DNA from: Nitrososphaerota archaeon
GTDB lineage: Archaea > Thermoproteota > Nitrososphaeria > Nitrososphaerales > Nitrosopumilaceae
Assembly (NCBI GenBank): GCA_028820595.1
Contig: JAPPIP010000084.1
Coordinates: 1 to 33,036 of the forward strand
Direction: 5' to 3'
Length of the DNA: 33,036 nucleotides
The notes beneath the pieces were generated by a model, which was not told the DNA's origin, made no database searches, and saw nothing but the letters and a program-made list of their open reading frames with translations. Positions 9,082 to 26,183 of this stretch are shown here, piece by piece. Position 1 is the stretch's first letter. The number at the start of each line of letters is the position of its first letter. A program made the translations under genes and the position numbers.

Positions 9082-9597
9082 ATGGACAAGCATGCCATAA
9101 TCACCGCGGTGGCGATCGCCGTCATTGCAGCTCCGTTTGCCGTGTCAGCTGCAAACATTGCTGGTGCAGAACAGATGCAGTACCGGTGGGACTCGCCAGG
9201 AATGTTCTCATTTTTCAAGATGGCTACTGGCGGGAGCCTGGAGTTCTGCAATACCTTGCCGTTCTGGACAAGCGTTGAAAGGCTCGAGGTTACGGCATAC
9301 TACCAGGGGAAGGACATCGGCACATACACCGTGGGGCCCATCAGTATGGATCCGCTTGCATCAGACGTGTACGAGGGCACGTTCAGATCAGAGCAAGTGG
9401 CCAGCTCGCATCAGATGTTCATGGCAGTCGACTTTGGGATCAGTAACGGGGAGTTCAGGGTCGACCCCGGGCAGATTGTACTCACAACCCAGACATATAC
9501 GCCCATACTGGGATTGCTTCCATACCACGCCACCTCGCAGATGTCGGCGCTCGAGTTTGACCGTGCCATGAGGGCGGCCGATCTGGCCTGCGACTAG
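9082..9597 (+). CDS. Small exported protein, unknown function
   Basis: About 171 residues with a clear signal peptide: MDKHAIIT, a hydrophobic core (about 5-20) and likely cleavage near SAANIAGA. The mature part is predicted mostly beta, with single cysteines in LEFCNTLPFW and in the final LACD. It follows the previous exported-protein gene by a short gap and shares its general plan: short beta domain, FxFF/GxIS-like phrases and a conserved hydrophobic SALEFDRAMRAADLACD end. A paired or co-secreted role is therefore possible. The ATG at 9082 is preferred over the GTG at 9073. Its stop overlaps that of the convergent gene through CTAG at 9594-9597. Confidence 0.7.
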   Translation: MDKHAIITAVAIAVIAAPFAVSAANIAGAEQMQYRWDSPGMFSFFKMATGGSLEFCNTLPFWTSVERLEVTAYYQGKDIGTYTVGPISMDPLASDVYEGTFRSEQVASSHQMFMAVDFGISNGEFRVDPGQIVLTTQTYTPILGLLPYHATSQMSALEFDRAMRAADLACD

Positions 9598-10799
9598 CGC
9601 TTGCGCCTGTTTGCCCGGTATATGAGGGCCAGTATCACTCCGATGATTCCTGCAGCCAGAAATCCGCCGGCCGTGCCGAATACCAAGTCTCTGTATGTCG
9701 GGCCGCTGACGTCTGCACGCGCGTCACTGCCGCCGTTCTGGGGCGCAGGTGTGGTGTCAGATTCCGCCCCCTGTCCCGCGTCTGACTCTGCCGTCCCCTC
9801 AAGCATGCACACGCCGTCCACCAACACGGTCCCAGGCCCGCACCCGGTGGAAGGCTCGCCGGATGCCGGCCCGTCCTCTGCCGTCCCCTCAAGCATGCAC
9901 ACGCCGTCCACCAACACGGTCCCAGGCCCGCACCCGGTGGAAGGCTCGCCGGATGCCGGCCCGTCCTCTGCCGGCTGCGGCGGCACCTCGCTTGGCGTAT
10001 CGGCCCCGTCCGGCGGTTCGCCTGCCTCAGACGGCATGCCGCCGGTCACGTCGCTGTCGTCGCTGCCATCATCCGCGGCAACGTCACCTGTGACATCCTC
10101 CGGTGTGGATTGTTCCTCCCCCGCCACATCCTCATCCGCGGCATCGTCGCCTGTAGTCTCGTCACCGGACGCGTCTGCATCGGCCACGCCCAGATTCGGA
10201 TCCTGGGCCGTCGACGAATCGCCGTCTGGAACTGCATCCTCTGCCACGTCGCGGGCAGAGAGGTAGATGTCAATAGACTCAATCCCGACAGGCAGGTTTG
10301 TTATTGTCATGTTTCTCCCCGATGTCTCAAAAGAGTCGTGCAGCCCTACGTCCGTGATTACGTCAAGCTGGTAGCCGTCAGGATCAAACACCGGATCAAA
10401 CAGTGGATCTGCAAAGAGTATGGTCAGCGCGCGATCCTCTGCGTCATCCGTAAACTCTATCGATATGGAGAGGAACGGGAAATCCAACAGCTCGGCGCCC
10501 GTGATGTTCAGTCCGGATGATTCGTACTCGAGCATCTCGGGGGCCCCGTCAGACATGTCAGAACGGCCATCGGCCAGGTCCACGGCCTGTGCGTATGCGA
10601 AAGGAGAGGCGGCCAGTACCAACACGACGGCAGCGCACGCTAGCATGACTGCAGGCAGCGCACGCACGTGAAGAGGTGACAGCCTGCAAGGAAGCGCACG
10701 TGCACGACAATCCGCATGGCCCAATAGCGGTGAGGTGGCAAAGTTATTGTTAAAAGTATTGATTGCATGAAGGCTAGTGCGCCGTGCCTCGAGTGGCAC
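9594..10799 (-). CDS. Exported, repeat-bearing surface protein with C-terminal TM anchor
   Basis: This is a predicted cell-surface protein. In the 401-residue reading a hydrophobic signal segment covers about 49-68 and ends at FAYAQA. A beta-rich domain follows (about 75-185), then a long Asp/Glu/Ser/Thr/Pro-rich stalk (about 186-285). Two identical 30-residue repeats (278-307 and 308-337) each contain CGPGTVLVDGVC. A second low-complexity segment leads to a transmembrane helix (about 373-394) and the basic tail RANRRKR. The order is that of a stalk-anchored surface protein facing outward. The first 45 residues form an unusually long n-region, and a TATA-like sequence lies inside the 5' end (about 10745-10757). 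Translation may therefore begin later, perhaps at a non-ATG codon near 10724. Confidence 0.75.
   Translation of the reverse strand: MPLEARRTSLHAINTFNNNFATSPLLGHADCRARALPCRLSPLHVRALPAVMLACAAVVLVLAASPFAYAQAVDLADGRSDMSDGAPEMLEYESSGLNITGAELLDFPFLSISIEFTDDAEDRALTILFADPLFDPVFDPDGYQLDVITDVGLHDSFETSGRNMTITNLPVGIESIDIYLSARDVAEDAVPDGDSSTAQDPNLGVADADASGDETTGDDAADEDVAGEEQSTPEDVTGDVAADDGSDDSDVTGGMPSEAGEPPDGADTPSEVPPQPAEDGPASGEPSTGCGPGTVLVDGVCMLEGTAEDGPASGEPSTGCGPGTVLVDGVCMLEGTAESDAGQGAESDTTPAPQNGGSDARADVSGPTYRDLVFGTAGGFLAAGIIGVILALIYRANRRKR
9786..9965. repeat. Perfect 90-bp tandem duplication inside a coding region
   Basis: Positions 9786-9875 and 9876-9965 are identical over 90 bp, with a short partial continuation after the second copy. 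The unit is exactly 30 codons, so the frame is kept and the protein gains a second CGPGTVLVDGVC module. Complete nucleotide identity implies a recent duplication or ongoing homogenisation. An assembly artefact is less likely but possible. Confidence 0.9.
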
Positions 10800-16878: not shown

Positions 16879-17901
16879 ATGTCTCTTCAGATGCAGGATC
16901 CCATGCTAGTCGTTGGGATAGGCGGAGCTGGTTCGAAACTGGCAAGAAGGGCATCGGGTATACTGGAATGCGACAGTCTTTTGATAAGCAACGACAAGGG
17001 CGATCTCGAACCGCCGGACGGCGGCGCGCCACAGAGCCGCTGCAGCACCCGTACGGTGGCAGTCGGCACCGGCGCCGTGATAAACCCGACAGTCGGTTTG
17101 GTACGGGCGGCCGCCTATGAGAAGCTCGACGCGATAAGGGATGCCATATCGGGCCACCCGACTGTCATACTGATGGGAAACCTGGCAGGAAAGTCGGGGT
17201 GCGCCATATGCCCGGCCGTATCAGAGGCGTGCGCCGCAGAGGGTGCGAAACTCGTATCGTTTGCAGTCATGCCGTTCGGGCACGAAAAGTCAAGGCTCTT
17301 TCATGCAGGCGTGGCGCTCAGGCGGCTCAGGGAGACGTCGGCGTGCGTTACCGTGGTGGACAATGATTCGATATCAGAGAGCAATCCCGACCTGTCGCCA
17401 AAGGAGTGCTACGACGTGGCAGGGGCGGCAGTCATGTATGCGGTGGACTTTGTAACCCGATCCGAACTTGAGGCGGGGACGGAGAGCCTGCTTGCGGCGG
17501 GCCGGAACCGTGACAGCCTGGAGGAGTCGCTCCGGGACGCGCTCAAGACCGTGTATGGCAGCACGAGTCCGGGCGCCATAAGGCACTCCGTGCTGTATGT
17601 GGCAGGAGGCGAAGACGTGCCTGCGGGGCTGCTGCGTTCTGTTGCGGCCCTTACAGAGGGCGTGCTTGGCGGTGGCGGCAATTCCGTCCCGGATGTGCAG
17701 GCCCCAACTGCCGAGACGGCGTCCGTACAGGCGGCCTCCTCTGACGAGTCAAGAGTAATTATGATGTCCACCGTACAGGGAATGGCAAAGTTTGAAAGGT
17801 ATGATCCGCTTGGGGCCATACCCGCCGACAAGACGCTTGACTGGTCCACCCCCGAATGCAGCATAGACTGCAAGATGCCCGGCCTGTACCAGCTGGAGTG
17901 A
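16879..17901 (+). CDS. Divergent FtsZ/tubulin-superfamily protein
   Basis: This appears to be a highly diverged FtsZ-like protein of the kind known in Thaumarchaeota, where cell division is thought to be run mainly by the Cdv/ESCRT system. In 340 residues the N-terminal Rossmann-like start VVGIGGAGSK (11-20) matches the FtsZ T1 loop. The tubulin signature GGGTGSG is replaced by MGNLAGKSG at 99-107. An FAVMPFGHEKSRLFHAGVAL block (128-147) resembles the FtsZ strand and helix after T4, and DND occurs at 161-163. The T7-like region reads AVDFVTR at 188-194 without the usual NxDxxD. GTP hydrolysis is therefore doubtful. The C-terminal 80 residues are Ala/Ser-rich and then end in a conserved-looking tail. 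Role and polymerisation are unknown. Confidence 0.65.
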   Translation: MSLQMQDPMLVVGIGGAGSKLARRASGILECDSLLISNDKGDLEPPDGGAPQSRCSTRTVAVGTGAVINPTVGLVRAAAYEKLDAIRDAISGHPTVILMGNLAGKSGCAICPAVSEACAAEGAKLVSFAVMPFGHEKSRLFHAGVALRRLRETSACVTVVDNDSISESNPDLSPKECYDVAGAAVMYAVDFVTRSELEAGTESLLAAGRNRDSLEESLRDALKTVYGSTSPGAIRHSVLYVAGGEDVPAGLLRSVAALTEGVLGGGGNSVPDVQAPTAETASVQAASSDESRVIMMSTVQGMAKFERYDPLGAIPADKTLDWSTPECSIDCKMPGLYQLE

Positions 17902-18204
17902 TCTTCTGCAAACGCGGGCATCCGCCGGCTTTGCTCAGGTTTGAAGAATGATGCCATTGGGGCATGCTGTGGTCCTGTCCGGCATGTTCGTGGGTTCTGA
18001 ATGTTCCTGCATCCTTGGGGCACGCGGCGCGTCTGTCTGCAAGCGCGTGGTGGCTGCCGCCGTCTGCAGCGGCAATGTGATTGCGGCCCCTGCCACCGCA
18101 TGGTATGCAGGATGCCGCGTTCATTGCATTTGGCAGGCGGGTGTAGTTGTAGCGGTGCCTATGATGCGTCTGTGGATACCGAAAGATTCCGATGCTGGCA
18201 GAGG
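17902..18204. other. Convergent intergenic region, FtsZ-like gene to L31e
   Basis: About 300 bases between two convergent stop codons. I see no gene, RNA or strong T-tract. The plus-strand open frame that starts here only runs across the antisense of the L31e tail. Confidence 0.4.
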
Positions 18205-19020
18205 CTACTTTGCGGCGTCGGGATCATCCTTGCCTGCAGGCGGCTGGGTCTCGTCGGATGCCGACTGCTCGGAGCCTGTGTCCGGAGCGTCCTGGTTCTC
18301 GCCTGCTTTTGCAACGCCGGAATCCGTATCTTTTTGCGCAGGCGGGGCGCTGCCGGCGTCACCAGAGCCGTCGCCGGGTTCGGCTTTGGCCTCGGTGCCC
18401 GTCGCGTCGTCGAGCTTGCCTGCCTCACCGTCATCATTTGCCGGATCCGCGGCTTTTGCCTGCGGTCCGTCACTTTTACCCTGCTCAGCTGCATCAACCT
18501 TCTCTGCGGCGGTAGCAGCGGGGGCGCTTGGTGGTTGCTCCTCCGCACCGTCCCGGATCTCCTCTCCTGCATCAGGTACTTTGGTATCGGATGCGGAGTC
18601 ACTGTCGCTGCGGCTGTCTCCTGCCACGTCCGTCCCGGGTTCTGGAAGCGGCGGCGCCTCTTTGGCAGGTCCCAGTGCGGCGGATCCTTCGAGGGCCGCC
18701 GTTGTCGCTGCGGCATCCTCCACTGCGGGCGCCCCTGATGCTGCCGGTTCCGGTTCTATAGGCCCGTCATATCTTGAGACTAGGATGTGCCCAATGTCCG
18801 TCCGGTGCATTCGCACCCTTATCCTTCTCGGCGGGCTCCTTGCGCCCCTTGACCACACTTGGCGGGCCAGATCCTCGTCAATCTTTACGTCCTGCGTCTT
18901 CATGTGGCGCCTGGCAAACTCCCGTATCATGTTGAGCGCACGCACTGACCTGTGCTGCGGCTGTGACAGTAATACCTTGCCCAAGTTTATCGTATGGACG
19001 CGCTCGAGTTCTTCGGACAT
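18205..19020 (-). CDS. rpl31e: Ribosomal protein L31e with long acidic C-terminal extension
   Basis: This is a large-subunit ribosomal protein located near the peptide exit tunnel. Residues 1-85 are a normal L31e: LERVHTINLGKVLLS, RALNMIREFARRHMK, VWSRGARSPPRRIRVRM, GHILVSRYD. The remaining 186 residues are an extension rich in Asp, Glu, Ala, Gly, Pro and Ser, with few hydrophobic residues, predicted disordered and strongly acidic. The family is normally about 85-120 residues. The frame is continuous to TAG and codon use looks like that of coding DNA, so the tail is probably translated. The gene starts 4 bases after the L39e stop and is clearly co-transcribed with it. Confidence 0.9.
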   Translation of the reverse strand: MSEELERVHTINLGKVLLSQPQHRSVRALNMIREFARRHMKTQDVKIDEDLARQVWSRGARSPPRRIRVRMHRTDIGHILVSRYDGPIEPEPAASGAPAVEDAAATTAALEGSAALGPAKEAPPLPEPGTDVAGDSRSDSDSASDTKVPDAGEEIRDGAEEQPPSAPAATAAEKVDAAEQGKSDGPQAKAADPANDDGEAGKLDDATGTEAKAEPGDGSGDAGSAPPAQKDTDSGVAKAGENQDAPDTGSEQSASDETQPPAGKDDPDAAK

Positions 19021-19024
19021 GCGC

Positions 19025-19183
19025 TCATCCCACCTCTACGTCAGTTGAGCGCCACTGTCTGCGCTTTGGATTGGTCCGGACGCCGCGCTTGGTCCTCAGT
19101 ATTACCCACGCCGGCACGGGCGAGGTCTGCTTTGTCTTTTTAATCAGACGGATTTTGCGCGGCGTGGACTTTCGGGCGGCCAT
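19025..19183 (-). CDS. rpl39e: Ribosomal protein L39e
   Basis: This tiny basic protein lines the ribosomal exit tunnel. Translation gives 52 residues starting MAARKSTPRKIRLIKKTKQ and continuing with SPVPAWVILRTKRGVRTNPK and RRQWRSTDVEVG, the hallmark L39e sequence. It is complete. A TATA box (atttaaaaa on the minus strand, 19207-19215) lies about 28 nt before the ATG, implying a leaderless mRNA. L31e follows after 4 bases, reproducing the common archaeal L39e-L31e order. It is short enough to be missed by length-filtered gene callers. Confidence 0.97.
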   Translation of the reverse strand: MAARKSTPRKIRLIKKTKQTSPVPAWVILRTKRGVRTNPKRRQWRSTDVEVG

Positions 19184-19206: not shown

Positions 19207-19215
19207 TTTTTAAAT
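19207..19215 (-). promoter_or_regulatory. TATA box of the L39e-L31e operon
   Basis: The minus-strand motif atttaaaaa is centred about 28 nt upstream of the L39e ATG. Confidence 0.6.
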
Positions 19216-19552
19216 GAATCTAAGACTGATGGCGCTTGGACGCGTGGCGATCGCAGTCACGCCGCAATGCTGGGGGGATACTCATGTTTTTACCAACCAA
19301 ATTTCAAACTCGCGGGTCACGCATCCCCGCCTCCCGACACCGTCCGGCGCGCGCCTCCTCCTGAGGCAGTACGCCGGCACGCCTCTCAGGCCGGACAGAG
19401 GTTATCGCCTGATGGCAGAGCGCACCCGCCCCACAATCCGCCCGCGCCAGCCTGTCTATGTTTCGTCACGTCTGAGACCCGCATGCGGTACGACGCCCTG
19501 CCCTTACTTCTCTGCCCAATCCAAATATTGGACGGCATGTGCGGAATTTGGG
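19216..19552. other. Upstream region of the methyltransferase gene
   Basis: The plus strand is open from 19214 into the methyltransferase frame, but the first 113 codons are low-complexity and Arg/Pro-rich with no recognisable domain. Just before 19553 the AT-rich caaatattgg (about 19522-19531) is well placed as the real promoter. I see nothing else in the stretch. Confidence 0.4.
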
Positions 19553-20083
19553 ATGTGGGAACGGGACACAGAGTTCATCAGGTGCCCGCGCTGCGGCGGA
19601 AGCCTGGAACTTGACATGTTCGTGGAGGGCGATGAGATCCGGGAGGGAGTCCTGTCCTGCATGGCGTGCCGGCTTGAGTTTCCAATCATCGATGGGATAC
19701 CAATAGTTTGGGATGATATCGCAGAATATTTTGCGCGCCGCGCCGCGCTCGGCGGCCGCCTGTACCGCATCGCGCAGTCCCCAAAGATGGGGATGTTTGT
19801 AAAGGAGGCATTGTCGTCTGCCGCGGCATCGGCGAGGACGTCGGCGGCAAAGGGGGCAGCTGCCGCATACGACAGGACCAATCTTGAGAACAGGTGGTCA
19901 CGGATTTATCGTAGAAGCGAGGGTTCTGAATTTTATCACGTCATAAAGGAGAGGCTGGCGCGGCTGCCTTCTGGAAGACGCGTGCTGGAGCACGGTTGCT
20001 CGGTTGGAAGTGTCCAACCACCTCGCGTCGCCAGACTCGGGCCCTGCATACGAGGCGGTTGTAGGAATCGACTCTTCGCATGA
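19553..20083 (+). pseudogene. Trm112-like zinc ribbon + SAM methyltransferase, 5' part of a frameshifted gene
   Basis: From MWERDTEFIRCPRCGG the product has a four-cysteine zinc ribbon (C11, C14, C36, C39) followed by FPIIDGIPIVWDD, a Trm112-type N-terminal module. A helical linker precedes the methyltransferase motif I RRVLEHGCSVG near 19978-20006. Immediately after motif I the frame runs into unrelated residues and stops at 20083. The continuation of the Rossmann fold is found one frame over. The real break is therefore at about 20004-20015, and one extra base relative to an intact gene would explain it. TATA-like caaatattgg is about 26 nt before the ATG at 19553. The substrate of the methyltransferase is unknown. 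Confidence 0.6.
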
Positions 20084-20474
20084 CGCAATCGCGCAGGCAA
20101 AGGGCGCCGGGGCAGACGCCTGCTATGCAGTAGGCGACTCCACATCCTGCATAACTGGCGGGCTTCGGTTTGATCTGGTGGTGGCCCTGAACATGCTTGA
20201 GCTGATCGAGCCGCTTGAACTCATAAGGCATATGTCAAGCCAGACGCTGCCGGGGGCGTACGTTGCAATGGCCGACCCGTATGACTTTGAGCGCGGTCCC
20301 GGTCCGGTGCCAAGGCGGATTGACGAGCACTCCCTGCGTGCAGCCCTGACAGAGCACGGATTCGAGATATCGGCGGACACCGCAGAACCCTCGTACATAC
20401 CGTGGAGGCTCGAGATCAACCCGCGCACGGTTCTAAACTACAAAGTCGATCTGGTGATCGGCGCAAGAACATAA
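20004..20474 (+). pseudogene. SAM-dependent methyltransferase, 3' part of the frameshifted gene
   Basis: This frame carries the rest of the class I methyltransferase fold: SNHLASPDSG, then VVGIDSSHDAIAQAK (motif II, acidic end of strand 2), LRFDLVVALNMLELIEP (motif IV region) and GAYVAMADPYDFERG. It ends NYKVDLVIGART. It has no good start of its own (TTG at 20004 falls inside motif I of the upstream frame). The residues on both sides look well conserved, so either the mutation is recent, there is a sequencing error, or ribosomal frameshifting restores a roughly 306-residue protein. Confidence 0.6.
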
Positions 20475-22302: not shown

Positions 22303-24954
22303 CTACAGCACGAAGTACTTGGATCCGGGGTGGTGCACTACTATGGCCGCCGTGGAGTGCTCTGGCACGATCTGCCCTGACTCAGTCAGGGTCATGTCAG
22401 AGTGCTGCGGCTCCAGCAGGCGCCAGACCAGCGCATGCTGTGCCAGGTCCGGGCAGCTTGGATAACCCCAGCTGTACCGGAGGCATCCGCCGTCTAGGTT
22501 CAGCTCCGACCTTATGCGCCGGTTGGTCCACTCCGCCAGCGCCTCGGCCGCCTCGACTGCAAGCCCGTGTAGATAGTACGCGTCCGTGTACATGCCCTTC
22601 CTGTTCCATTCCTCTATCGTGTCGGTGACCCTTGAGCCTACCGTAACCGACTGGAACGCCACCACGTCGTCTTTGCCAAAGTAGTCGGCAAGGCACAGCC
22701 GCTCCGTCTTTTGCGAGCGCGGAAAGGCAAACGACACGACGTCGCCCTTTGCATCCTCCACGTCGAGTACGGAGCCACCCCTGTTGTGGCACCTAAAGTA
22801 CCCGTACACCACCTGGGGCTCGAACATGCGCTCAGATGCGATTCTCCGCTGCCACGACAGGAACAGCCTCTCGTGGTCCTCCTGCGACTCCCTGCCGGCC
22901 CCCCTGCCGCGCACGCCCCAGGACAGCCTGTAAAGCGACTTTGTGTCGACAAGGGGCCAGACATCCCCCATCGGAATGTCGCCGGGCTGCAGCCTTGCCG
23001 GAACGCCCGGCCTCATGGAGCGGGGCACTACAGGCGGCCGCACCGGCGCGACTGCGCTCCTTTCGGGCCTCCCCTCCTCCGCAGACGCGCTACCTGCCTT
23101 GCCGTCCGGCCCTGCCCCGGCCGCCCTGGCCTTGGAGAGCGACTCCTGTCTTGCCTGCCACCTTGAGAGGCCCTGCCTCCAGTCCGCGAGCATCTCCCCT
23201 CTCCGCGTGTCGTCCACGAGCGCGTCCATTATCCTTAGCCCGTCGAACATCGTGTTGCAGTAAAAGACTCCCGGCTCGTACAGCGCGTCCTTTATGTCCC
23301 CGTCAGTCGTTGCAATCCTGTTTATGTAGCTGCTGTTGATGGCGGCGCCCCCGCACATGACGGGTACGTCCATCTTGTTTTCGCGTGCATGCTCCACGAA
23401 CAGCTGCATCTGTCTCGAGGTGGACACGAGCAGGGCCGACAGACCGACTGCGTCCGGTTTCACCTCTGCAATCTTGTCGAGGAACTTCTGGAGCGGCACC
23501 TGCTTGCCCAGGTCGTATACGGCATACCCGTTGTTCTGGAATATGGTCTTTACCAAGTTCTTGCCGATGTCGTGCACGTCCCCGTATACTGTGCCGAGCA
23601 CTAGCTTGCCCTTGCTTGCGCCGCCCTCATCTTTCACCAGGTACCTCTCAAGCTCGCCGACGGCAGCCTTCATGCACTCTGCCGACTTTAGGACAAACGG
23701 CAGTATGAGCTCGCCGGCGCCGAACCGGTCGCCGACCTCCTTCATGGCTGGCAGCAGGCTCTCGTTGAGCACGTGTATGGCAGCGTCATGGGTCTTCGGC
23801 CGCGGCGCGTCGATCGTAATGGCGTCTGCATTCCCCTCCTTCTTGTCCGGAATTACGTTGGATTCGAGCCCCGCCTGTATGGCTATGGCGCGCACCACGT
23901 CTTGCGCGATGCCGTCGGCAAGCCGGTTTACAATCCTAAAGTTTGCCCGTTTTGCAGGCGACCACGACGCGTCGACCTCGGGGCCCCTTCGCTTTCTGGC
24001 GCCGCCGCCACTACTCCCTGCGCCGCCGCCGTCCTCAAAGTACGACACGAATTTTGAGAGTGCGTCCGGGCCGCGGTCAAATATGAGGTCCTCGGCAAGG
24101 CCGCTCTCCTTCTTGTCGATCTCTCCGTACGGTATTATCTCCCTGGCGTTTACGATGGCCGCGTCAAGCCCGGCCCGTATGGCATGATACAGAAACACGG
24201 AATTGAGAACGCGCCGCGCCGGGGGCGTGAGGCCAAAGCTGATGTTGCTCAGGCCCAGCGCGGTAAACGAGTCGGGAAACTCCTTTTTGACCAGTCTGAT
24301 GCCCTCCAGCGTCGCGACTCCCGCGCCGCGAAACTCGTCTTGGCCCGTCGCAAGCGTGAACGTCAGGACGTCGAATATGTACTGGTCCGGCGCCAGCCCG
24401 TACTTTTCCCCCTCCTCGAACAGGAGCCTTGCCGTCTCCAGCTTCTCCTCGGCCGTCTTTGCCATGCCGCCGGGGCCTATACACAGCGCGATTGCCGGGG
24501 TGCCGTACTCGGCCATTACGGGGGCTAGGCTTGCAAAGCGCGAGCCGTCCCCCTCCAGATTTATCGAGTTGATTATGGGCCTGCCCGGAATCTGCCGTAT
24601 TGCCGCCCGTATCACGTCGGGATCAGTCGAGTCTATTACGAGTGGGGCCTCTACCTCAAGGCTGAGCCTCTTTACCAGGTTTACCATGAACTCCCGCTCG
24701 TCGGACCTTTCCGTCGTGGCCACGCAGACGTCGATGCAATGGGCCCCCTCCTCGGCCTGCGAGCGGCCTAGGCTTACGAGCCCGTCATAGTCTCCATCAA
24801 GCACCATCTGCTTTGCCTTTTTGGAGCCCTGCGTGTTGAGCCGCTCTCCTATTATCATGGGGGGCGGCAGCTGCCTGAGGCCCACCGCAGCCAGCGCCGA
24901 GCTTACCCTTGGTATTACCATGTGGAAGTGGAAATCCACGATGTTTGTAAACAT
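22303..24954 (-). CDS. metH: Methionine synthase, pterin-binding + cobalamin-binding + activation domains (MetH C-terminal part)
   Basis: This is the large piece of a split B12-dependent methionine synthase. Domains in the 883 residues: pterin-binding barrel at about 33-300 (IGERLNTQGSKK, NSINLEGDGSRF, GLSNISFGL), a helical cap and the B12 domain at about 390-560 with DVHDIGKN (D459, H461; His is the lower cobalt ligand), SALLVST and CGGAAIN. A Gly/Pro/Ala-rich linker (about 600-655) leads to the reactivation domain at about 660-883 with RYSWGYPSCPDL and YLHGLAVEAAEALAEWTN. The homocysteine domain is missing here and is encoded by the preceding gene 52 bases upstream. The start could also be the ATG at 24921, where the distance to an AT-rich element is better. 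Confidence 0.92.
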   Translation of the reverse strand: MFTNIVDFHFHMVIPRVSSALAAVGLRQLPPPMIIGERLNTQGSKKAKQMVLDGDYDGLVSLGRSQAEEGAHCIDVCVATTERSDEREFMVNLVKRLSLEVEAPLVIDSTDPDVIRAAIRQIPGRPIINSINLEGDGSRFASLAPVMAEYGTPAIALCIGPGGMAKTAEEKLETARLLFEEGEKYGLAPDQYIFDVLTFTLATGQDEFRGAGVATLEGIRLVKKEFPDSFTALGLSNISFGLTPPARRVLNSVFLYHAIRAGLDAAIVNAREIIPYGEIDKKESGLAEDLIFDRGPDALSKFVSYFEDGGGAGSSGGGARKRRGPEVDASWSPAKRANFRIVNRLADGIAQDVVRAIAIQAGLESNVIPDKKEGNADAITIDAPRPKTHDAAIHVLNESLLPAMKEVGDRFGAGELILPFVLKSAECMKAAVGELERYLVKDEGGASKGKLVLGTVYGDVHDIGKNLVKTIFQNNGYAVYDLGKQVPLQKFLDKIAEVKPDAVGLSALLVSTSRQMQLFVEHARENKMDVPVMCGGAAINSSYINRIATTDGDIKDALYEPGVFYCNTMFDGLRIMDALVDDTRRGEMLADWRQGLSRWQARQESLSKARAAGAGPDGKAGSASAEEGRPERSAVAPVRPPVVPRSMRPGVPARLQPGDIPMGDVWPLVDTKSLYRLSWGVRGRGAGRESQEDHERLFLSWQRRIASERMFEPQVVYGYFRCHNRGGSVLDVEDAKGDVVSFAFPRSQKTERLCLADYFGKDDVVAFQSVTVGSRVTDTIEEWNRKGMYTDAYYLHGLAVEAAEALAEWTNRRIRSELNLDGGCLRYSWGYPSCPDLAQHALVWRLLEPQHSDMTLTESGQIVPEHSTAAIVVHHPGSKYFVL

Positions 24955-25006
24955 TTACGGACGTCCGCCGGGGCCCTCCTGCCCGTAGCGGCGGCATGCG
25001 TTGCAG

Positions 25007-25990
25007 TCAGCCACCGGCATCCGCCGAAGCCACCTTGTCCCCGTCTATTACCCCGCGCAGCACCGCAATGTGCTCCGGGGTGGTGCCGCAGCATCCCCCG
25101 ATTATGCGGATGCGGCGGTGTTTTGAGAGGAGCACGGACATTGCGTCGCCCATCTGCGCGGGTGTCATTTTGTACGCGGCCACACCGTCCACGTTCTCCG
25201 GCATTCCGGCGTTTGGCACCACCAGCATGTGGTGCGAGGACTCCTCGTCAAGCCATCTGACACTGGGTGCCATCTCGTGCGGGCCCGTCGAGCAGTTCAT
25301 CCCGAACACGTCCACGCCCATGCCCGATATCGTCGTGTACGCCGACTGTATACTGGTTCCAAGTAGCATCTTTCCGTGCTGGTCGAGAGTTGCGTTTGCA
25401 ATTATCGGGACTGCGGCGCCCGCGGCGCGCACCACCGCATGGCACGCCTCGACTGCAAGCTTTACCTCCAGGATGTCCTGGCTGGTCTCGATCAGAAGGG
25501 CGTCGACGCCCCCCTCGATCAGCCCCTCGGCCTGCAGCGCGAACGCGTCGCGTATGTCGTCAAGCGGCTTATGCCCTAGGTCGGGATCGTTTGAGCTTGG
25601 CAGGAACCCCGTGGGCCCCATCGAGCCGATCACGTACCGCGGCCTGCCCCCGCCGTACTTTGAGCACGCGCCGCGCGCAAGCTCGGCGATCTCCCTGTTG
25701 AGGCTCACGGTCCGCTCCCCGAACCCGTACTCGTCAAGCTTTATCCTGTTGGAGCCAAACGAGTTGGTCTCGATGCAGTCGGCTCCCGCCTCCAGGTACC
25801 TCTTGTGTATGGACTCGATCCACTCCGGGTGCGTCACCACGAGCCCGTCGTTGAACCCGTCCCTGCAGTCCGGAAAGTCCTCCGGCTGCGGATCGTATCT
25901 CTGAATCTCGGTTCCCATTGCGCCGTCAAACAGGAGCACGCGCTCCCTGAGCGCGTCAAGGAGTGGCAATTTCTGCGGATCGCCTGACAT
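25007..25990 (-). CDS. Homocysteine S-methyltransferase domain protein (MetH N-terminal part)
   Basis: This zinc enzyme domain binds homocysteine and receives the methyl group from methylcobalamin. The 327 residues begin MSGDPQKLPLLDALRERVL and contain LLFDGAMGTE, a core barrel, FGMNCSTGPHE and IIGGCCGTTPEHI; the single Cys and the Cys pair are the expected zinc ligands. In bacterial MetH this domain is fused to the part encoded just downstream, so the two proteins probably work together. Start chosen at 25990: the TATA-like agaattaaac (about 26011-26022) is 25 nt before it, whereas the open frame to 26161 would include the promoter. It is the first gene of the two-gene unit. Confidence 0.92.
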   Translation of the reverse strand: MSGDPQKLPLLDALRERVLLFDGAMGTEIQRYDPQPEDFPDCRDGFNDGLVVTHPEWIESIHKRYLEAGADCIETNSFGSNRIKLDEYGFGERTVSLNREIAELARGACSKYGGGRPRYVIGSMGPTGFLPSSNDPDLGHKPLDDIRDAFALQAEGLIEGGVDALLIETSQDILEVKLAVEACHAVVRAAGAAVPIIANATLDQHGKMLLGTSIQSAYTTISGMGVDVFGMNCSTGPHEMAPSVRWLDEESSHHMLVVPNAGMPENVDGVAAYKMTPAQMGDAMSVLLSKHRRIRIIGGCCGTTPEHIAVLRGVIDGDKVASADAGG

Positions 25991-26183
25991 GCATGACCGC
26001 GCGCCTCGCGCGGGTTTAATTCTTGGGATCGCGTGTTGTGCCACGGGCGGACGGGCGGACGGGGTGCCAATGGCCCGAACTTTCGGCCCGCATATCGCCA
26101 TGCGGCCGGCGCGTCCCGCGGTCACTGCAATCATCAACAGCGGAGGCCACGGCCACGGCAACGGTGGCGTGCCGAACCTGTGG

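Follow-up and report, generated by a model that had tools for sequence, protein, structure and literature searches.

In eukaryotes, the ribosomal protein eL31 contributes to an adapter site that exit factors use for docking (PMC10118133), and SEC61, SRP and the SRP receptor bind beside it (PMC10937380). The C-terminus of another protein, uL24 (RPL26), is the UFMylation site at the exit, where UFM1 has been placed, and one ligase complex engages both eL31 and uL24 (PMC10937380). In crenarchaea, aL45 and aL47 represent lineage-specific additions to the large subunit, for which contacts with SRP or the translocon have been proposed (PMC10516650). The archaeal eL31 chains in the PDB comprise 75-95 residues, and none of them has a C-terminal tail comparable to that of the 271-residue protein described here. 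Some protist eL31s are also long (up to 188 residues), but N-terminally, the match to the domain starting at residue 83-89. In the literature searched, with most subscription papers outside its reach, no published report of a C-terminal eL31 tail was found; nor was a thaumarchaeal ribosome structure found in that literature.

The window (i.e., the whole stretch of DNA analyzed, 33,036 nucleotides) belongs to a genome of the Nitrosopumilaceae, a family of ammonia-oxidising archaea. The features of the eL31 locus are as follows.

18205-19020, minus strand: eL31 (L31e) gene, 271 codons plus stop, assigned by its PF01198 match, single copy and intact relatives
18766-19020, minus strand: folded eL31 domain, residues 1-85, defined by pLDDT, matches to solved eL31 chains and a dN/dS of 0.03-0.22
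18208-18765, minus strand: predicted disordered C-terminal tail, residues 86-271, net charge -30, defined by composition, pLDDT and the frame kept in relatives
19025-19183, minus strand: eL39 (L39e) gene, 52 codons, without a tail, directly upstream of eL31, named from sequence

The gene had originally been predicted to encode L31e with an acidic, disordered tail of 186 residues, twice as long as the folded part, and each of these points was borne out in this genome, disorder at the level of composition. The Ribosomal_L31e profile (PF01198) matched residues 6-73 with a score of 66 bits (cut-off 25; E 3.6e-18), and a genome-wide profile search gave no other match in the window's genome, such that eL31 is present there in single copy. 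A Foldseek search with the eL31 model retrieved, with probability 1.00, eL31 chains from ribosomes of known structure. The protein therefore has the folded domain and the fold of eL31 from other archaea and eukaryotes, and likewise eL39 as its gene neighbour; the two genes are separated by 4 bases, and the identity of eL39 was read from the translated reverse strand. The tail region (18205-18765, minus strand) accounts for 187 codons, of which the last is the stop and the other 186 encode the residues of the tail. Downstream of eL31 lies a convergent gene of the tubulin/FtsZ family (16879-17901).

Several other features of the window were recorded. A Trm112-like/methyltransferase gene (19214-20474, plus strand) is read in two overlapping frames near 20000, which suggests a frameshift, either real or of assembly origin. 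A 401-residue protein (9594-10799, minus strand) without a Pfam match has an acidic low-complexity region, a probable C-terminal membrane helix and a cysteine-containing repeat, EDGPASGEPSTGCGPGTVLVDGVCMLEGTA, in two copies. The cobalamin-dependent methionine synthase is encoded by two adjacent genes (22303-26161, minus strand), one for the homocysteine methyltransferase part and the other for the pterin/B12/activation part.

In terms of composition, the eL31 tail contains 25 D and 18 E versus 11 K and 2 R, together with 42 A, 22 P and 21 G, and is devoid of F, W, Y and C. Its pI is 4.05, its net charge -30 and its GRAVY score -0.94. Low hydrophobicity, high charge and the lack of a predicted fold, the properties by which disorder was assessed, were all observed in the tail. 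In the AlphaFold2 model, the block-mean pLDDT was 70-94 across residues 1-90 (81-94 across residues 11-90) but dropped to values mostly under 50 beginning at residue 95, and no secondary structure was predicted past residue 83. Given the shallow alignment, the model is consistent with disorder of the tail but falls short of proof.

The tail is almost certainly a real, translated C-terminal extension of eL31. Its translation in vivo is inferred because the frame runs on from the eL31 domain into the tail without a single stop, and because relatives keep that frame. In a protein search, the eL31s of 277c_18 and p16x60bins.31 (277 and 267 residues, respectively) were found to carry the tail in the same frame, and all changes of tail length among the three close genomes are in-frame. 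The three genome pairs gave dN/dS values of 0.31, 0.41 and 0.33 for the tail (40-52 non-synonymous versus ∼37 synonymous changes), compared with 0.03-0.22 for the eL31 domain and 0.6-1.5 for the shifted frames across the tail. Nucleotide identity among these genomes was 83-86% in the tail; in the 3' flank it was 89% in one pair and 73-77% in the remaining pairs. The tail thus appears, from these substitution patterns, to be fast-evolving yet under moderate purifying selection, i.e., a loose constraint at the protein level.

The proposal that the open frame itself argues for translation held only in its conclusion, since openness alone is weak evidence in GC-rich DNA. A 183-codon open run would be expected from the flanking GC content with P ∼0.002, and 1.8% of base shuffles of the tail remained open. 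Other frames across the same DNA are open as well, including a 366-residue antisense ORF (17948-19048) that spans the tail, and openness by itself is therefore modest evidence. The antisense frame that has its wobble positions in common with eL31 gave a dN/dS of 0.36-0.44, which matches expectation; since eL31 is the certain gene at this site, an antisense gene was rejected. It is very improbable that the tail is an artefact of this genome, whether a chance open frame, a frameshift, an assembly error or an antisense gene. Long chance frames do occur in GC-rich DNA, and the nearby methyltransferase gene appears to be frameshifted. However, the separately assembled 277c_18 and p16x60bins.31 share both tail and frame, which largely refutes such an origin, and tails occur throughout the family, single-contig genomes included. 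A chance open frame as the sole explanation is excluded by the continuous frame and by the relatives.

The distribution of the tail was examined in an order-wide search of 400 genomes, in 346 of which eL31 was found; C-termini were read at ∼165 loci. All of the complete eL31 genes of the Nitrosopumilaceae (98 of 98) carry a C-terminal extension, of 11-428 residues (median 83.5). In four other families (f7, f10, f12 and f15), 0-2 residues follow the eL31 domain, while 8-69 residues follow it in family f8 (probably the Nitrososphaeraceae) and 6-33 in family f2; families f3, f4 and f9 contributed one or two eL31 genes each to the sample. The comparison of L31e lengths across thaumarchaea thus upheld the tail in this genome, but as a property of the whole family. 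Judged from these comparisons, the tail of this genome represents one version of a trait that is common to the Nitrosopumilaceae and shorter in some neighbouring families.

Within the Nitrosopumilaceae, extensions of 11 and 16 residues were observed in two genomes (G240 and G255) of one reduced-genome genus, and genus g15 is almost without tails, in eL31 and uL24 alike. A genome assembled as a single contig of 2,045,086 bases (G189) encodes an eL31 tail of 129 residues that is net positive. At one locus (L066, genome G120), the tail is cut by a single early frameshift, beyond which the intact repeat can be read in another frame, owing either to a recent mutation or to an assembly error. A stop near residue 90 followed by a decayed tail, which would speak against translation, was sought among the relatives. 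The cases encountered were the tail-less eL31s of other families, the nearly tail-less G240 and G255, and the L066 frameshift with its intact repeat; none of these cases gives reason to think that translation stops short of the tail in this genome.

The original prediction of strong acidity, which is valid for this genome, does not extend to the family. Among 107 tails, the net charge is positive in 48, negative in 29 and close to zero in 30, and acidity as the conserved property was accordingly rejected. It appears to be a lineage trait and, on the tails compared, the least conserved of their properties. GC-rich genomes tend to have acidic tails rich in A, D and P, and AT-rich genomes tend to have K/E/P repeats (e.g., KKEEPAKEAP). 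GC content was nevertheless discarded as the driver of tail charge (rho -0.08 across the family), though most GC-rich genomes have acidic tails. An 8-mer is present at least three times in 52 of the 110 tails of at least 40 residues, and hydrophobic residues make up 8% of the tails on average. By inspection, no motif common to the tails across the family was found, and the two eL31 proteins scanned contained no Pfam domain in their tails. In one genus (L007 and L070), a conserved segment of 45 residues, KLADFVDPKKGTQHYIDRYNKEKKYKAWFDKNFPNLTIEEAVGLK, without a Pfam match, lies inside the tail, and the tail of G247 (L073) has a basic/hydrophobic stretch at its end. What the tails appear to share, at the level of sequence, is a long, hydrophilic, charged and often repetitive chain.

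Other ribosomal proteins were also inspected. Across 20 genomes, the proteins of the S10/spc cluster showed notable C-terminal extensions only in uL24 and uS3, and slightly in uL4 in the clade of the window; uL22 had no tail. In 21 genomes, no long tails were found on eL19, uL23 or uL29 (uL29, at most 22 residues). For uL23 and uL29, the long open frames seen in GC-rich genomes were rejected as tails, as they are located upstream of the start. A general trait of exit proteins is thus excluded by the tail-less uL23, uL29, uL22 and eL19. The uL24 of the window's genome (G000, contig C99, L248) has a very acidic C-terminal tail of 128 residues, and that of G247 a tail of ∼158 residues (the uL24 loci L247, L249 and L250 were also read); the dN/dS of the uL24 tail was 0.26-0.44 among three close genomes. 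The C-terminal extension of uS3 is variable, disordered and here shorter than that of uL24, the longest being in G247 (L247/L168; in G000, L248/L178). Because uS3 is a small-subunit protein, tails also occur away from the exit.

The lengths of the eL31 and uL24 tails were correlated over 55 genomes (rho 0.68) but not in the AT-rich genomes alone (rho -0.26). Their net charges were correlated within the family (rho 0.81, n=33) and in the AT-rich genomes only (rho 0.80). When phylogenetic contrasts were computed on a small tree of two proteins, the correlation of charge fell from the raw 0.81 to r 0.37 (p 0.025); for length, r was 0.46 (p 0.007) inside the family and 0.27 (p 0.05) in the full set. 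The two tails therefore co-vary, modestly so once phylogeny is corrected for. The charge of the uS3 tail does not track (rho 0.16, n=17). The core charge of the ribosomal proteins shows a weak relation to that of the tails (rho 0.64, the range being narrow), and a proteome-wide trend may thus account for part of the co-variation.

Extensions at the opposite terminus of eL31 were observed in several other Thermoproteota (L104-L113 and L115; e.g., G417, G448 and G511). These N-terminal extensions comprise 34-114 residues, 29-64% of them acidic, some being nearly pure glutamate, and the proteins that bear them lack a C-terminal tail. They resemble the tail described here in being charged, of low complexity and disordered-looking, and were probably gained independently.

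The placement of L31e near the peptide exit, assumed at the outset, is supported by the position of eL31 in eukaryotes (PMC10118133, PMC10937380), and by homology eL31 would form part of the exit rim on the large subunit of the thaumarchaeal ribosome. The tail would then leave the ribosome at the rim of the polypeptide exit, where uL24 would add a second one, such that ∼310 residues of flexible, charged chain might surround the exit in this organism. Owing to their length, solubility, scarce hydrophobic residues and high charge density, such chains could form an entropic and electrostatic brush that would screen emerging chains and limit unspecific contacts of the exit surface. The eukaryotic uL24 C-terminus is likewise the C-terminal end of an exit-rim protein and an interaction site, but differs in its specific modification machinery; aL45 and aL47 are separate folded proteins, in contrast to the tails, which would be disordered parts of general ribosomal proteins.

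The function that we tentatively favor from the sequences is that of a disordered brush, which would act at the exit rim via its bulk properties. It is preferred over tolerated growth and over docking because the presence of the tail is conserved while its sequence and sign of charge are free, which points to bulk properties. The extension in every complete eL31 gene of the family, the frame kept in relatives and the low hydrophobic content count in its favor, as do the uL24 tail in the same genomes, with its co-varying length and charge, and the acidic N-terminal extensions that eL31 carries elsewhere in the Thermoproteota. The tandem repeats and the huge variation in length would equally fit a tolerated expansion, and the uS3 tail on the small subunit, the trend in core charge and the viability of a genus almost without tails also count against a brush. 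Near-neutral growth, in which repeat slippage lengthens the solvent-pointing C-termini of eL31 and uL24 and selection removes only hydrophobic or aggregating residues, would account for the frequent 8-mer repeats, the variable length, the rapid sequence change, the frameshifted or shortened tails of single genomes and the almost tail-less g15. It is nonetheless a somewhat unlikely explanation, in view of an extension that no complete gene of the family lacks, the restriction of tails to a few ribosomal proteins and the cost of up to 428 added residues on an abundant protein; the dN/dS below 0.5 fits either view.

A docking tail, in line with the recruitment of factors proposed at the outset, would instead capture exit-site factors (SRP, the SRP receptor, SecY, NAC-like chaperones or an aminopeptidase) through short motifs or through its charge. 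The surroundings of eukaryotic eL31 are indeed a docking site for such factors (PMC10118133, PMC10937380), and the 45-residue segment of one genus and the basic/hydrophobic end in G247 could serve in this manner. Docking, like near-neutral growth a serious rival of the brush, is likewise considered somewhat unlikely, as neither motif nor charge sign is conserved across the family, the tails checked lack a Pfam domain, and SRP19 is found whether or not a genome has tails; for the same reason, loss of SRP19 was dismissed as a correlate of the tails. The brush reading can be extended to a two-protein structure formed by eL31 and uL24 (∼310 residues here and ∼590 in G247), whose length and charge co-evolve and which would shield or organize nascent chains independently of sequence, the acidic N-terminal eL31 extensions of other Thermoproteota having arisen separately for the same purpose. 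In this full form the proposal is speculative and probably incorrect in at least some part.

What began as a single unusual protein is, on these observations, a trait of its whole family. Long eL31 tails, with their usual partner tail on uL24, apparently constitute a previously undescribed feature of the ribosome in this family, and it would be a mistake to shorten the long eL31 and uL24 proteins of these genomes on the assumption that their ends are misannotated. The ribosome exit of ammonia-oxidising archaea, a highly abundant group, apparently differs in its construction from that of the archaeal ribosomes with solved structures to date. Should the tails prove functional, fast-evolving disordered chains would set the exit environment of an entire lineage, and existing genomes whose tails are long, short or almost missing would offer ready controls.
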